This document shows positions 3,737-34,505 of a stretch of 64,000 nucleotides of DNA, piece after piece. How positions within the stretch are numbered: position 1 is the stretch's first letter; each line of letters begins with the position of its first letter. The notes beneath the pieces were generated by a model, which searched no databases, was not told the origin of the DNA, and saw only the letters and a program-made list of their open reading frames with translations. Source of the stretch: Myxococcus stipitatus (GTDB taxonomy: Bacteria; Myxococcota; Myxococcia; Myxococcales; Myxococcaceae); NCBI RefSeq assembly GCF_038561935.1, contig NZ_CP102770.1, forward strand, positions 9,548,001 through 9,612,000, read 5' to 3'. The position numbers and the translations under genes are program-made.

Positions 3737-4531
3737 ATGGGCGGCGTGTCTCCTTCACAGCTCGGCTTGTTCGACACCGACGCGCGGGGAGACGCCGTGG
3801 CCCCCGCGGCCTCCGAGCGTCGCCTGCCGGAGCGGGAGGAGGCGCTGCTGCGGGCCGCGAACCTCGCTCGGCGGCTGTCCCAGCGGCTGGGCGTGCCGGT
3901 CCATCTGCGGCTCACCGACAACCGCGCCACGCTGGTGAGCTTCCGCCGGGTGGAGTCCGGACTGCGGCTGCGGCTGCATCATCTCTTCCTCGATGCACCG
4001 GACGACGTGGTGCGGGCCATCGCGCTCTATGCCGCTCGCTCGGATGCGAGCGCGGCGGAGCGGCTGGAGGCCTATGCGAGCGAGCGGCAGGGACTGGTGC
4101 GGCGGGAGCGGCGGCCCGGCAAGCCCTTGCGCTCGCGGGGGCGGTGTTTCGATTTGCGCGCCATCCTGGCGAGGTTGGATGCCGAGTGGTTCGGCGGCCG
4201 GGTGCGCGTGGACATCGGCTGGGCGCGGCGTCCGGCGAAGGGGCGGCGGCGGAGCATCCATGTGGGGGGCTACGACGCGCGGCTGAGGGAGATTCGCATC
4301 CACCCCGCGCTGGACCGGCCGCATGTCCCGGCGTTCGTGGTGGACTACCTGGTGTTCCACTCGATGCTTCATGCGGACCTGCATGAAGAGGAGGGGGAGG
4401 GGTTGGACTCGGCGGGGCGCTGCGCGCGGGGGCACTCGGCGGCGTTCCTTCAACAAGAGGACACCTTTCCCCTGCGGGACACGGCGCAACGGTGGCTACA
4501 GGACAACCACACCTCGCTGCTGCGGGGCTGA
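3737..4531 (+). CDS. SprT-like protein with altered HExxH motif
   Basis: 264 residues. The C-terminal half resembles the SprT / zinc metallopeptidase-like fold: a strand IRIHPALDRP, then VVDYLVFHSMLHADLH, where family members carry HExxH. Here the motif reads HSMLH (residues 208-212), so the catalytic glutamate is replaced by serine while both histidines and a further downstream His (ARGHSAAF) remain. Metal binding is therefore possible but peptidase activity is doubtful. The N-terminal half is arginine-rich and may bind nucleic acid. No signal peptide. It follows the beta-propeller gene by 57 bp and may share its transcript. The family call is moderate. Confidence 0.65.
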   Translation: MGGVSPSQLGLFDTDARGDAVAPAASERRLPEREEALLRAANLARRLSQRLGVPVHLRLTDNRATLVSFRRVESGLRLRLHHLFLDAPDDVVRAIALYAARSDASAAERLEAYASERQGLVRRERRPGKPLRSRGRCFDLRAILARLDAEWFGGRVRVDIGWARRPAKGRRRSIHVGGYDARLREIRIHPALDRPHVPAFVVDYLVFHSMLHADLHEEEGEGLDSAGRCARGHSAAFLQQEDTFPLRDTAQRWLQDNHTSLLRG

Positions 4532-4635: not shown

Positions 4636-5037
4636 ATGCGCTACTTCAACGTGGACGAGGCGAACCGGCTGGTGCCGCTCCTGAGCCGAACCTTCGAGCA
4701 CATCCGCCCGTGGGTGGAGCGCGTGCAGCAGCTGGTGGAGACGCTGGGCACTCCGGAGGGCAAGGCCCTGGCGAACCACGAGGCGCTGCGCGAGGAGCGC
4801 GACGCGTTGCTGGAGAAGGTGCGGCTGGAGCTGCGTGAGTTCCACGAGATGGGGCTGGAAATCAAAGGGGCGCAGGGGCTGGTCGACTTCCGGGCGCACC
4901 GGGGAGAAGAGCCCGTGTACCTGTGCTGGCGTCTGGGCGAGCCCGCCGTGTCGCACTGGCATGGGATGTATGACGGCTTCTCCGGACGCCGCCCCATCGA
5001 CAGCCCGGATGAGTTCGCGCCTACCTACTTGAGCTGA
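4636..5037 (+). CDS. DUF2203 family protein
   Basis: 133 residues that match the DUF2203 pattern end to end: an opening RYFNVDEANRLVPLLSRTF, a long charged helix, and the ending GLVDFRAHRGEEPVYLCWR followed by HWHGMYDGFSGR. The histidine-rich C-terminal block suggests metal binding, but no function is established for the family. Cytoplasmic. The gene converges with the lipoprotein gene at 5021 and their 3' ends overlap by 17 bases. Confidence 0.9.
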   Translation: MRYFNVDEANRLVPLLSRTFEHIRPWVERVQQLVETLGTPEGKALANHEALREERDALLEKVRLELREFHEMGLEIKGAQGLVDFRAHRGEEPVYLCWRLGEPAVSHWHGMYDGFSGRRPIDSPDEFAPTYLS

Positions 5038-5668
5038 CGGGCGGAGGCTCTTCACGCTTCAGCGCGTGGATGAGCCCCTGGTCGTTGTACACGGCGCCAT
5101 ATGGAACGAATCCACCGTCGACACGCTGGGTCACGACACGACTGAAGCCGATGTACCCATGCACCGTGCAAGTCCCGGGTGAGGACACGTCGAACACCAG
5201 GGTGTCGGCCCCCCACGTCTTTCCGGTGTCCTGATTGAGGAAGTGCGTCGGCCGCCACTTCGACTCCGGACCGTTGAGCGCCTCCATGGCCGCCCCGAGA
5301 AACAGGACGTCCTTGGCGGCAGGTGCCGCGGGATCTCCCGGCAGCTCACAAGTCCGACCCGCGTGCGAGAAGCCTCCGCTCATCGGGGAGACATGACTGA
5401 TGACCCACTTGGACTCCTGGGTCTCGTCGTCGAAGAACAAAGCGCAATAGCCCGACACCTCGGAGCCCGCGCGGGCCTGCATCATGGCCGTACACGCCGC
5501 CTCGACGAGCGCATCCATGTCGTCGTAGGGACCGACAATGCCTCCCTCGTAGCGAACGGGTCCGTTGGGGATGTCATGCACACGAACCTCCAGATTCGTG
5601 CGGGCGGTCGTGCAGCCCCCAAGCCCAGAAATGCAGACCGAGGCCATCGCGACTCGCAGCGCGGTCAC
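5021..5668 (-). CDS. lipoprotein paralogous to the JAB-like lipoprotein, HNHP motif lost
   Basis: 215 residues with a signal sequence ending ISGLGGC (lipobox Cys near residue 19). The first half aligns with the product at 6086: LEVRVHDIPNG against LNVRVVTLPNG, then VGPYDDMDALVEAAC against AGPFDTLEDLAENSC, then GYCALFFD against EYCALYYR. The segment where the paralogue has a JAB-like HNHP here reads WRPTHFLNQDTG, so the metal site appears lost. It is the last gene of a leftward set and its ATG overlaps the preceding stop (ATGA). Function unknown; a non-catalytic paralogue acting as partner or antagonist is one possibility (inference). Confidence 0.8.
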   Translation of the reverse strand: MTALRVAMASVCISGLGGCTTARTNLEVRVHDIPNGPVRYEGGIVGPYDDMDALVEAACTAMMQARAGSEVSGYCALFFDDETQESKWVISHVSPMSGGFSHAGRTCELPGDPAAPAAKDVLFLGAAMEALNGPESKWRPTHFLNQDTGKTWGADTLVFDVSSPGTCTVHGYIGFSRVVTQRVDGGFVPYGAVYNDQGLIHALKREEPPPVSSSR

Positions 5669-6081
5669 TTGATCCCCACGATGCGCCCTTGTTCATCAAT
5701 GGCATACACGGTCTCCACATCGAGGAGTGTCGTGGTCAGGCCGCACCGCTCGATGACGGGAAAGAAGAAGACATAGGAGAGGCCACCCTCGCCCTTCTTG
5801 ATGGAGACCTCATAGGTGCTGGGCTGGGAGAGGCAATGAGCCAGGCGCTCATCTCCCATGTTCGATTCAACGCCGTGGGAGAAGTAGTGATTGAGCGCGG
5901 TATCGAGAGCGAGCACCGCCGGCCCCTCCAGCACGGTCGCGCCTTCCCAGCTCGAAGGGTATTGAAGTCGTTGGGCCTGTTCGGGCGGCGCCCACTCGAC
6001 CTTGGGTTGCTTGACGTACCCGAAGAGGGAGCACGCCGTCGTGGAGAGAGCTACGAGCGCTGCGAGGAGTACGATTCTCAT
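5665..6081 (-). CDS. small lipoprotein between two JAB-like paralogues
   Basis: 138 residues, starting MRIVLLAALVALSTTAC, a clear lipobox (Cys17). The body has no motif I recognise; it contains four cysteines in all and a C-terminal strand pair ending YAIDEQGRIVGIK. The ATG at 6081 is chosen because it lies 4 bases after the stop of the upstream lipoprotein gene and gives a clean signal peptide; the longer open frame would run inside that gene. Its stop overlaps the next start by 4 bases. The tight packing with two paralogous lipoproteins argues for joint function, for example as partner or immunity factor. Confidence 0.8.
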   Translation of the reverse strand: MRIVLLAALVALSTTACSLFGYVKQPKVEWAPPEQAQRLQYPSSWEGATVLEGPAVLALDTALNHYFSHGVESNMGDERLAHCLSQPSTYEVSIKKGEGGLSYVFFFPVIERCGLTTTLLDVETVYAIDEQGRIVGIK

Positions 6082-6085
6082 GGGC

Positions 6086-6790
6086 TCAAGGAATCCAGCG
6101 CTGCCCTTCGAACGGCTGAAAATCTCCATCACGCCCCACCGCCTTGCCAATCGGGACCCACGTTCCATCTCGAAGCGCCGAGACCACTCGAGAGAAGTAG
6201 TTGTACATGAATGTCCGGCACACTTCGGCCCTCCAATCCCAATAGAACAGAAGCAGCTTTCGCTCCCACACGTGCTGAGTCCCCGGCTCGGCGACACGGG
6301 CAACGCCCCCCAGGGGAGACCATCCTTCTTCACGTCCCTTCCCCAGGTCTCCCTTGGAGAACTCGGGGTTGTGCGGATGGTTGTGTGAGGGGCCGAGCAA
6401 CAACGGCGTCTTGCGGTCCAACGCATGGATGGCTGTCGGAACAGCGCAGAACTTCTCTCCGTTGGGACGGGTGCCCCCGATGTCGGAGAGGTAGCTGAGG
6501 TAGTACTTCTGGTCCTCCAGCGTTCGATAGTAGAGCGCGCAGTACTCGAACCCGTGCTTGGCCTGCGAGGCACTCATGGCCGCCGCTCCAGGCTGCGAGG
6601 TCAGCAGCTTGCACGAGTTCTCGGCCAGGTCCTCGAGCGTGTCGAACGGCCCCGCCAGCGGGCCATCAACCTGAAGCTGCCCGTTGGGCAGCGTGACCAC
6701 CCGGACGTTCAAGTTGGGTGTATTGCAGCCCGACACCATCGGACCCACCAGCGATGCCATGACGAGTGCGCGGCTGGGGAGTCTGGACAT
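6086..6790 (-). CDS. lipoprotein with JAB/MPN-like metalloprotease motif
   Basis: 234 residues. A signal sequence ends GPMVSGC (Cys22). Residues 135-148 read SHNHPHNPEFSKGD, which resembles the JAB/MPN metal-binding signature (HxHP, six or seven residues, SxxD) as found in RadC-like proteins (HNHPSGNPEPS). The spacing between the second His and Ser is one residue shorter than usual. JAB domains are zinc isopeptidases or peptidases; here the domain would sit on the membrane outside the cytoplasm. The start codon lies 12 bases after the coiled-coil gene at 6803, so these genes form one leftward operon. The fold call is moderate; the substrate is unknown. Confidence 0.7.
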   Translation of the reverse strand: MSRLPSRALVMASLVGPMVSGCNTPNLNVRVVTLPNGQLQVDGPLAGPFDTLEDLAENSCKLLTSQPGAAAMSASQAKHGFEYCALYYRTLEDQKYYLSYLSDIGGTRPNGEKFCAVPTAIHALDRKTPLLLGPSHNHPHNPEFSKGDLGKGREEGWSPLGGVARVAEPGTQHVWERKLLLFYWDWRAEVCRTFMYNYFSRVVSALRDGTWVPIGKAVGRDGDFQPFEGQRWIP

Positions 6791-6802
6791 GTGTGGCCGG
6801 CC

Positions 6803-7408
6803 TCACCCACCGCCCAGGCTCTTGTGGAGCAGCGCCATCTTGTTGCGTGCGGCCAGCAGCTGCTGGCGCAGGGAGTCCGCCTGCCTCGCGATGTCGTTGA
6901 AGTCCCGCTCCTCCGCGGATTGCGCCACCGCCTGCGCCTCCTCCGCGACCTCCTTCATCCGGTCCTGCAGCGCCTGGAACGCGGCCACCACCTCGGTGTG
7001 CTCCTCGGCCGTCTTCGCCTGCTGCCTGCGCGCCGCGAACTCCTGCATCCGCACGTTCAGGTCCCCCGCGCTCTGCCCCACCGCGCCGTACCGCACGAGC
7101 AAGTCCTTGAAGACCTCCGTGCGCTCCTGAAGCTCCCGCGCCCGCGCATGCACCGCCTCCGCCTGCGCCTGCTGCCTGTCGCGCACCTGCGAGATGGCCC
7201 CCACCAACGTGGTGATGCGCACGCGCAGCTCTTCATCCATGTCCGCCAGGGACGCGAGCGTCGCCGAGGCGCGCTCCAGGTGCTTCTCCGACTGCAAGGG
7301 CAACCCCTGGAGCTGCTGGCTCAGGGCCTCGAACCGCGTCAGCCCCTCCTCCAACGAGCGAGCGGCTTCGACCAGCGCGGAGTCCTTCGGCGTCTCTCTC
7401 TTGCTCAT
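6803..7408 (-). CDS. coiled-coil protein of unknown function
   Basis: 201 residues from MSKRETPKDSA, almost entirely helical with long heptad-like stretches rich in Gln, Glu, Ala and Arg (LRVRITTLVGAISQVRDRQQ and others). No signal peptide or membrane segment from this start. An open frame continues 23 codons further upstream but its composition is unlike the rest, so I use the ATG at 7408; no good ribosome site decides it. First gene of the operon that continues into three lipoproteins. Unrecognised family. Confidence 0.7.
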   Translation of the reverse strand: MSKRETPKDSALVEAARSLEEGLTRFEALSQQLQGLPLQSEKHLERASATLASLADMDEELRVRITTLVGAISQVRDRQQAQAEAVHARARELQERTEVFKDLLVRYGAVGQSAGDLNVRMQEFAARRQQAKTAEEHTEVVAAFQALQDRMKEVAEEAQAVAQSAEERDFNDIARQADSLRQQLLAARNKMALLHKSLGGG

Positions 7409-7535
7409 GGGCAACCAGCAACATGCCACGGGCCCAGCCAGGGGCACGAGCGGCCCCTTCCCCGTGCTCGTCACCACGCCCCTCCATCCCCAACTTCCCG
7501 GGAGCCGTCAGGACTGTCTGTCGCGAGGTTCACAC

Positions 7536-32830: not shown

Positions 32831-33104
32831 GCTGGCATTCCTTTGTCTGTGAGCCGGACGCATGGAAACAGCAAGCGGAGGCAGGCCCCGGAATGGACCG
32901 ACCTCCGCGCCGCGCATGCTCAGACTTCACATCAATGGCAGTCCAGACAGGCCATCCATGATGCCGCACACTGGACAGGGCGCCTGTCCAGGGGCACACC
33001 GGGGCTGGACCTCCAGGGAGGGGAAGTGACTGAGATTGAACCGTCCCGGCGGGCCTCTCCAGGCGCGACTCAACGACAGACGCCGATGCTACCGTTCCGT
33101 GACC

Positions 33105-33776
33105 ATGTCGACCCTTCATGCTCCTTGGTCATTGTTGGCTGTCATTTTCTGCCTGGGCTGCGCAACCGCCACCAAGCCCCCCATTCAGAAGGCCTGGGAA
33201 GAAGCGGAGGTGGAGTGCCTCGCCGCAGAGCAGGACCACTGTGTCTCTCTTCTCTGCATGGGGGACACCTGCGGTTTCTACCCCTGCGGGGAGCTGCCCG
33301 GAGAGGTCGAGTTGGCTCGATTCCCGCCAGCGCGCCCTCCCGCTGCCGCTGCGGCGCCGGGCATGGGACCGCGGAGAAGCTGGGGCGCCGGGCAAAAGCT
33401 CCCGAGGGGCGCCGTCATGGTGTTCCCCAACTGGAATGGTGCCCCGGAGAGAGTCGTCCCACCTTCACGCCAGCTCACGCCGGGTCGCTGGGAGAAACAC
33501 CACATCTTCCCCCAGTCCGAAGACCTCGCACGCTGGTTCGAGCGCCAGGGCGTCAAGATCCACCACTACACGATGCCAATTCCGCTTCACGTCCATCGGC
33601 GAATCCACGACGGCACAGGGCGCGGAGGTGCATGGAACGATGCCTGGCGGAGCTACATGCGGCAGAACCCGCGCGCCAAACCAGAGGAGATCTTCAAGCA
33701 TGCGGGGGAGCTGATCCACCGCTTCGACCTCATGGGAGGCCCTGTTCAGCCCTACTATTCTCGCCCAGGAGCGTGA
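33105..33776 (+). CDS. sitA6: SitA6-family polymorphic lipoprotein toxin
   Basis: 223 residues. The signal sequence LLAVIFCLGC puts the lipid on Cys19, as needed for transfer between myxobacterial cells by TraA/TraB outer-membrane exchange. The middle has a cysteine cluster (SLLCMGDTCGFYPCGELPG) and a Pro/Ala hinge. The C-terminal toxin part contains KHHIFPQSEDLARWFERQG, then HHYTMPIPLHVHRRIHDG, an HHxxP plus His-rich arrangement typical of WHH/HNH-like nuclease toxins. The next gene, 6 bases on, encodes a double-CXXCG immunity protein, which fixes the family. The ATG at 33105 is chosen for the lipobox. Nuclease activity is inferred. Confidence 0.85.
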   Translation: MSTLHAPWSLLAVIFCLGCATATKPPIQKAWEEAEVECLAAEQDHCVSLLCMGDTCGFYPCGELPGEVELARFPPARPPAAAAAPGMGPRRSWGAGQKLPRGAVMVFPNWNGAPERVVPPSRQLTPGRWEKHHIFPQSEDLARWFERQGVKIHHYTMPIPLHVHRRIHDGTGRGGAWNDAWRSYMRQNPRAKPEEIFKHAGELIHRFDLMGGPVQPYYSRPGA

Positions 33777-33782
33777 GGCCAC

Positions 33783-34505
33783 ATGAGTCGGTTCTATTGG
33801 GTGAACGAGGACAGGACCATCGCGGAGAGATACGGCGGGGAGGTCGATGGGTGGCGTCCGTTGGCGCTTCCCGGCGTGAGCTGTCACACCTGCGGCGCGA
33901 CGTGGAGCGACGTGGGCCATGACTACCCTTCCGTCGACCTCTCACAACTGCCCGAGCGCCGCGATCTTGAACGAGCCAGACCCGAGCCCTTCCCCGAGTT
34001 CGCGCGCCTTCGCGAAGCAGTACGCCCACTGACTCCGCCCGATGCACACCTTCCGCCGGGAACAGGCTTTGGCCCACTCGCAGGCCGAGCCTGGGGCGAG
34101 TTCGGCCCCATCGCCTGGGTGGGGGGACTCACCCTCCTCATGCGCCGAGATGCACTGGCGCGCCTCCAAGCAGAAGGAGTGCGTGGACTGAAAGGGTTCC
34201 GCACGGAGCTTCGCTTCCGCCAGAAGAGCCCACCCGACCTGCTGGAGCTCGAATTGGAGCCACGCGGCAGGCTTCACCCCGACTGCATTCCCCCAGACGC
34301 ACCACCACCGTGCCCGACCTGCGGCCGGCACGGATTCATGCGACCCGAGGATCCAGTTCTGGAGGCTGCGTCCCTGCCTCGAGAGCTGGACCTCTTCCGG
34401 GTCGGCGACTTCGCCACCATGGTCATCGCCACCGAGCGGTGCAGGGAGGTCGTGCACCGCCTGGGGCTCGACGGCTTCACGTTCCAGGAACTGCCAACAC
34501 GCTGA
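33783..34505 (+). CDS. sitI6: SitI6-family double-CXXCG immunity protein
   Basis: 240 residues, cytoplasmic (no signal peptide). Two CxxCG knuckles, CHTCG at residues 34-38 and CPTCG at 177-181, define the myxobacterial double-CXXCG family whose members protect against SitA6 toxins. It opens RFYWVNEDR and ends with a region of mixed strands (FATMVIATERCREVVHRLGL). Immediate neighbour of the lipoprotein toxin and surely co-transcribed with it. The knuckles presumably bind zinc and shape the toxin-binding surface (inference). Confidence 0.9.
   Translation: MSRFYWVNEDRTIAERYGGEVDGWRPLALPGVSCHTCGATWSDVGHDYPSVDLSQLPERRDLERARPEPFPEFARLREAVRPLTPPDAHLPPGTGFGPLAGRAWGEFGPIAWVGGLTLLMRRDALARLQAEGVRGLKGFRTELRFRQKSPPDLLELELEPRGRLHPDCIPPDAPPPCPTCGRHGFMRPEDPVLEAASLPRELDLFRVGDFATMVIATERCREVVHRLGLDGFTFQELPTR

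Follow-up and report, generated by a model that had tools for sequence, protein, structure and literature searches.

A putative JAMM-type metalloprotease lipoprotein and its small lipoprotein partner as a candidate toxin and antidote pair of Myxococcaceae

Within the window, by which we mean the whole 64,000-nucleotide stretch of Myxococcus stipitatus DNA analysed here, three adjoining lipoprotein genes (A, M and B) form a cassette whose core conserved unit is the A-M pair. The loss of A from such units is one-sided and repeated, and M outlives it, as would be expected if A were harmful and M protective. We propose, with a probability of about 0.6, that A is a toxin, a JAMM protease acting in the envelope, that the lipoprotein M confers immunity to it and that B is a dead accessory of A; proteolysis by the JAMM site, the toxicity of A, its inhibition by M and the role of B are the parts of this proposal that we infer. 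Judged by its sequences, A-M appears to be a toxin and antidote pair not described before, and a description of the family was not found in the open-licence literature, which is no proof of novelty.

Results

The cassette lies on the minus strand, where A, M and B follow one another head to tail. Gene A (6086..6790, minus strand) starts with ATG and encodes a 234-aa lipoprotein with a predicted JAB/JAMM metalloprotease domain, the proposed envelope-acting toxin. Gene M (5665..6081, minus strand), also with an ATG start, encodes a 138-aa lipoprotein, the proposed immunity protein or specific inhibitor of A, and gene B (5021..5668, minus strand), with a GTG start, encodes a 215-aa lipoprotein that is a paralogue of A without the Glu and the HxH. 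A gap of 4 nt (6082-6085) separates A from M, and the overlap between M and B is likewise 4 nt (5665-5668). Each of the three products carries a lipobox with a Cys conserved across relatives: Cys22 of A, the predicted lipid anchor (codon 6725..6727, minus strand), is invariant in an alignment of 25 A relatives, as are Cys17 of M (6031..6033, minus strand) and Cys19 of B (5612..5614, minus strand) in the alignments of their own families. The original prediction had placed three adjoining lipoprotein genes here and had called the second small and unrelated to the others; both descriptions hold, M being unrelated in sequence to A and B in family scans. Scans of the window's A, M and B against Pfam, NCBIfam and PHROGs gave no match for any of them.

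The cassette is an accessory insertion. It is flanked by a DUF2203 gene (4636-5037; PF09969) and an unnamed gene (6803-7477), which are directly adjacent in 24 of the 27 genomes of the genus, including the closest relatives G013 and G008; among these 27, only G000 and G014 carry the cassette at this site. The inserted segment between the two genes (5038..6799, not assigned to a strand), which is missing from G013 and G008, has limits that are approximate at both ends, the G013 alignment being extendable by a few bases, and its G+C content is about 62-65% as against 67-72% in the flanks. Searches for carriage on mobile elements by tblastn, with the window's A against plasmids and with one divergent relative against phages, gave no match. 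In G024 a different insert of about 1.4 kb occupies the same site (L076, 2109-3503). In a clade whose genomes measure about 9 Mb, a homologue of M lies one gene away from this site, close to the DUF2203 gene (L167, L173, L211, L216, L217, L240 and L302-L304); in G007 it is accompanied by A. The region near the DUF2203 gene may be a recurrent insertion spot. Also in this part of the window, the plus-strand gene at 3737-4531 encodes a product that appears SprT-like by eye and has no Pfam or NCBIfam match; it has HSMLH where the HExxH motif is usual for SprT-type proteins and may be an inactive form.

The JAB-like character that had been predicted for the first lipoprotein is borne out by motif, family profile and fold resemblance, pieces of evidence that are each weak but agree in assigning A to the JAB/JAMM superfamily. 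The protein contains HNHPHNPEFSKGD, that is, HxH followed by six residues and then SxxD (H136-N-H138-PHNPEF-S145-KG-D148; 6347..6385, minus strand). The textbook JAMM spacing between HxH and Ser/Thr is seven residues; among motif-bearing A genes it is six or seven, and many relatives have seven. The prediction had also looked for a catalytic Glu upstream, and one is present: E82 (codon 6545..6547, minus strand), in the motif FEYC, is invariant in 25 of 25 A relatives together with H136 and P139, with H138 and D148 nearly invariant. In a second alignment of 21 divergent members, E82, C84, H136, H138, P139 and D148 are invariant in all 21 and S145 is kept in at least 90%. Since these active-site residues are retained between relatives that are only about 20% identical, the motif is not due to chance.

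Profile and structure comparisons point the same way. Prok-JAB (PF14464) was the commonest Pfam match, found in 8 of the 25 relatives (best E 0.0058) and in 6 of the 21 divergent members (best E 1.8e-4, best score 21.8 bits); its curated cut-off of 25 bits was passed by three family members (L210, L219 and L272, 27.7-28.7 bits), and the window's own A matched no Pfam family, Prok-JAB included. Against the PDB, the 21-member profile gave 22 matches up to E 10, weak (best E 0.084) and JAMM-type: AMSH/STAM-binding protein, AMSH-like protein, sst2, Rpn11, a Mov34-type protein and the uncharacterised 2kks, which we take to be JAMM-type. The Glu and HxHP of the profile align with those of the AMSH-like protease. 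JAMM chains were found only with this divergent profile; the PDB searches with P0001 alone or with the first A profile gave chance-level matches. An AF2 model of A from four sequences was poor (pLDDT 54.6, pTM 0.60), and with this poor model VIA-align returned MPN/JAB chains in nearly all of its top 50 rows (Z up to 5.3), while the best Foldseek match was a proteasome lid chain (E 0.083).

The JAMM motif is central in A, and the C-terminus is conserved in the close subfamily. The variable C-termini that the original prediction had led us to expect were therefore not seen, and none of the 25 A relatives matched a nuclease family in Pfam. Between G000 and G014, A has an omega of 0.147, which falls within the range of six neighbouring genes (0.017-0.212), so that it evolves no faster than they do.

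M has an omega of 0.296 in the same comparison. It matched no immunity model in Pfam, its profile gave only chance-level matches in the PDB, and Foldseek of its model returned no match under E 0.001. In VIA-align the top rows for the M model were PepSY-type (Z 6.6 and 6.1); as these lie within the background, we assign no fold to M.

BLASTP aligns A with B over 224 columns at 29% identity (E 3e-20), which makes the two paralogues. In every one of the 10 B homologues that were aligned, a Gly stands at the place of the catalytic Glu and the HxH is gone, confirming the earlier description of the third lipoprotein as a dead paralogue of A. That B is a pseudogene is ruled out by its omega of 0.315 (G000 versus G014) and by a mean column identity of 57% among the 10 homologues. 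All 11 intact B genes lie inside A-M cassettes with a full-length A, which is catalytic in 10 and carries H138P in the remaining one (L042); where A is broken or gone, at L049 and L196, B is broken too. The paralogue is thus linked to the first gene, as the prediction had it, and the same pattern gives no support to the idea that B confers immunity independently. One subfamily carries B as an optional addition to the conserved A-M unit, so that of the three-gene cassette expected in other myxobacteria the A-M pair is conserved and the third gene is not. L174 (349-699) and L175 (2910-3440) hold another dead paralogue of A, again lacking Glu and HxH; it has no M to itself and lies close to an intact A-M pair.

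To describe the fate of the two core genes, 177 clusters of listed A and M matches in 28 genomes (145 places in the A list, at least 150 in the M list) were scored as 179 units, with L050 left out as a duplicate of L178. Among the matches listed, the A and M profiles hit the same 28 of 61 relatives. Each of the 113 catalytic A genes has an intact M adjacent to it, and no catalytic A stands without M. A broken A lies beside an intact M in at least 16 units, a number to be read with the proviso that many of the genomes are drafts and some frameshifts may be sequencing errors; the reverse, an intact A with a broken M, does not occur among the matches listed. In at least four units an intact M accompanies a full-length A without a JAMM residue; L192, which has lost the Ser and kept E, HxH and D, was counted as such a non-JAMM A in the census and as an intact A in the M tree. 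M stands without A in at least 42 units, four of them near contig ends (L161, L166, L298 and L308), and lies in pieces without A in at least one. No pair of EYC and HxHP was found within up to 1 kb upstream of the listed orphan M genes. Only three units have an A-type stretch without M, namely the dead paralogue at L174 and at L175, and L279, which is cut by a contig end.

Census units from related species are not independent, a concern that is answered by counting changes on a tree. On the tree of 175 M proteins, the states of intact and broken A are separated by 15 changes for 16 broken genes, and those of intact and absent A by 29; such changes carry no direction in themselves, and the broken reading frames are losses. 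If breakage were proportional to gene length (234 versus 138 aa), the chance of finding all 15 breakages in A would be about 0.001. Purifying selection continues to act on orphan M genes, whose median omega is 0.19 (12 disjoint pairs) against 0.14 for M beside an intact A (34 pairs). A and M distances are correlated (Mantel r 0.88, the highest of 500 permutations being 0.11), so nothing points to an exchange of partners. The inverse assignment, in which M is toxic and A protects, is ruled out by the same counts of at least 42 M without A and 0 catalytic A without M.

Discussion

The original prediction of a delivered effector with a protector gains support from the one-sided loss of A, but the protector is most likely M and not the dead paralogue. 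We propose a hypothetical scenario in which (i) A, exported and lipid-anchored, would act as a JAMM (JAB) metalloprotease, with proteolysis presumably carried out by the JAMM site, and would harm the envelope of a neighbour without a matching M; (ii) delivery of A would proceed by outer membrane exchange, vesicles or another route; (iii) M would block A by binding it, either in the periplasm or at the outer membrane, and so protect the maker and its clonemates; and (iv) B, a dead copy kept only beside A, would probably help A, for instance as a dimer partner, carrier or tuner. As the lipobox of M confines it to the envelope, A should act there too, and such envelope action would favour proteolysis over the nuclease role suggested for Tox-JAB domains in the accessible text of Zhang et al. 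(2012; PMC3482391). Both proteins are probably located in the outer membrane, since a Lys at position +2, linked to inner-membrane retention of lipoproteins in M. xanthus (PMC3222651, accessible text), occurs in 0 of 168 M and 1 of 122 A sequences. Lacking this Lys, M should be carried over together with A in outer membrane exchange and would then protect the target, which argues against that route. That A evolves no faster than its neighbours and keeps its C-terminus conserved within the close subfamily, unlike modular polymorphic toxins, speaks against the toxin reading as a whole. The poor model of A, its low fold Z-scores and the lack of a Pfam match for the window's own A also count against it, and orphan M genes might serve some other purpose.

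Of the other explanations, the one that survives best, although we regard it as unlikely, is that A serves the cell itself as an envelope protease in remodelling, shedding or quality control, and that M is its specific inhibitor or chaperone, in the manner of the propeptides of other metalloproteases, with no rival cell involved. The purifying selection on A, like that on its neighbours, would suit such a role, as would the conservation of cassette sites within clades and the resemblance of the M model, albeit within the background, to PepSY-type folds, which include metalloprotease propeptides. However, the cassette is patchily present, with empty sites in the nearest relatives; the number of A-type matches varies from 1 to 18 per genome; and the M genes without A are not explained by an inhibitor whose own enzyme was lost. 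A housekeeping protease with its inhibitor thus fits the one-sided loss less well than a harmful A with a protective M.

Two further explanations are considerably less probable. M might be the substrate of A, which would trim or release an M that has a function of its own; this would account for A never occurring without M while M occurs without A, and for their strict co-inheritance, but it leaves the tandem M genes, two or more behind one A at several loci, without a reason. To a similarly low degree, A might be a released predation enzyme that digests the envelopes of other species, with M protecting the producer and no competition among kin. The window's family consists of predatory bacteria, and A is confined to it (62 of 195 Myxococcota genomes, 8 of 90 genera); the selection on orphan M in the absence of A suggests instead a defence against A from relatives. 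That A-M is a true SitA-SitI system, killing TraA-compatible non-kin by outer membrane exchange, is very improbable: it would fit that these same bacteria have a candidate lipoprotein toxin with a partner downstream, and that SitA6 (TIGR02269) occurs in largely the same genomes as A (28 of 61 each), but no SitA model of NCBIfam or Pfam was matched, A has no nuclease C-terminus, and M, itself a lipoprotein, might be exchanged.

If A is indeed a toxin and M its antidote, an envelope-acting protease weapon with many loci per genome would be added to the nuclease-based kin-discrimination arsenal of myxobacteria. JAMM enzymes are known mainly as intracellular ubiquitin-type proteases, and here they would be shown to work as exported lipoproteins. 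We extend this tentatively, at somewhat less than even odds, to a large undescribed class of contact-dependent or vesicle-borne toxins of Myxococcaceae in which toxin and antidote are both envelope lipoproteins, a JAMM enzyme acts outside the cytoplasm on targets that are not ubiquitin-like, and a dead toxin copy serves as an accessory. The one-sided loss yields a clear and simple prediction for the removal of M beside a retained A.

Among known systems, the active-site layout and probably the fold of A are shared with the JAMM-type proteins AMSH, Rpn11 and CSN. These are intracellular proteins of the ubiquitin system, unlike A, which is predicted to be an exported lipoprotein. The Tpe-Tpi pair, in which the C-terminal metallopeptidase of VgrG2b is paired with PA0261 (PMC6899460), resembles the A-M proposal in combining a metallopeptidase toxin of the periplasm with a cysteine-containing immunity protein in the envelope, which is a lipoprotein in some species. 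However, it is delivered by the T6SS and the accessible text of that report does not mention a JAB/JAMM domain, whereas A appears to be of the JAB/JAMM type. The myxobacterial toxin families named in the accessible text of PMC12077181 are AHH-Imm11 and SitA6-SitI6, and the A-M family is not among them.

SitA-SitI (SitBAI) is similar to A-M in having a lipoprotein in the same bacteria, a downstream partner and many divergent loci per genome. According to the accessible text of the reports, SitA combines an escort domain of about 375 aa with nuclease C-termini that act in the cytoplasm (PMC5562445, PMC8546572), and SitI is described as not transferred (PMC8546572), whereas M is itself a lipoprotein. 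The SitBAI operon sometimes holds an extra gene, as the cassette holds B, but SitB, a type I signal protein, is unrelated and not a dead paralogue. With SitA, A shares the type II signal with a lipobox, its Cys22 being invariant in the 25 members; it lacks the variable, usually nuclease, C-terminal domain, and no SitA model was found for the window's A (NCBIfam) or among the families matched by its 25 relatives. The resemblance to SitA lipoproteins in the original prediction is thus not upheld as membership. A true SitA6 is encoded in the window at 33036-33776 on the plus strand (TIGR02269, 286 bits versus a cut-off of 85.75) and is directly followed by a SitI6 double-CXXCG immunity protein (33783-34505, plus strand; TIGR02264, 305.6 bits); the two lie about 26 kb from the A-M-B cassette.

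Also close in kind are the JAB-fold toxin and immunity pairs Tox-JAB-1/Imm65 and Tox-JAB-2 (DUF4329)/Imm-NTF2-2, in which a JAB-fold toxin domain with E, HxH, S and D stands beside a small alpha+beta immunity protein, an arrangement that A-M probably shares; Imm65, like M, is a lipoprotein, the only one among the immunity proteins of that collection in the accessible text (Zhang et al. 2012; PMC3482391). In contrast, the JAB domain of Tox-JAB is part of larger polymorphic toxins with RHS repeats, whereas A is a free-standing lipoprotein. DUF4329 (PF14220) was matched weakly by 3 of the 21 A members (best E 0.011, 16.1 bits versus a cut-off of 28.6), and the NxxxE motif of Tox-JAB-1 (PMC3482391) has no counterpart in the 21-member alignment, where by eye no conserved Asn lies four residues before E82. 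With the SitA profile and variable C-terminus absent and the DUF4329 scores below cut-off, the A-M family would stand, on sequence grounds, as a variant outside SitA and Tox-JAB-2 membership. Without a match to SitA, Tox-JAB or immunity models at cut-off, the best reading is by analogy: A-M would work like the SitA or Tox-JAB systems.
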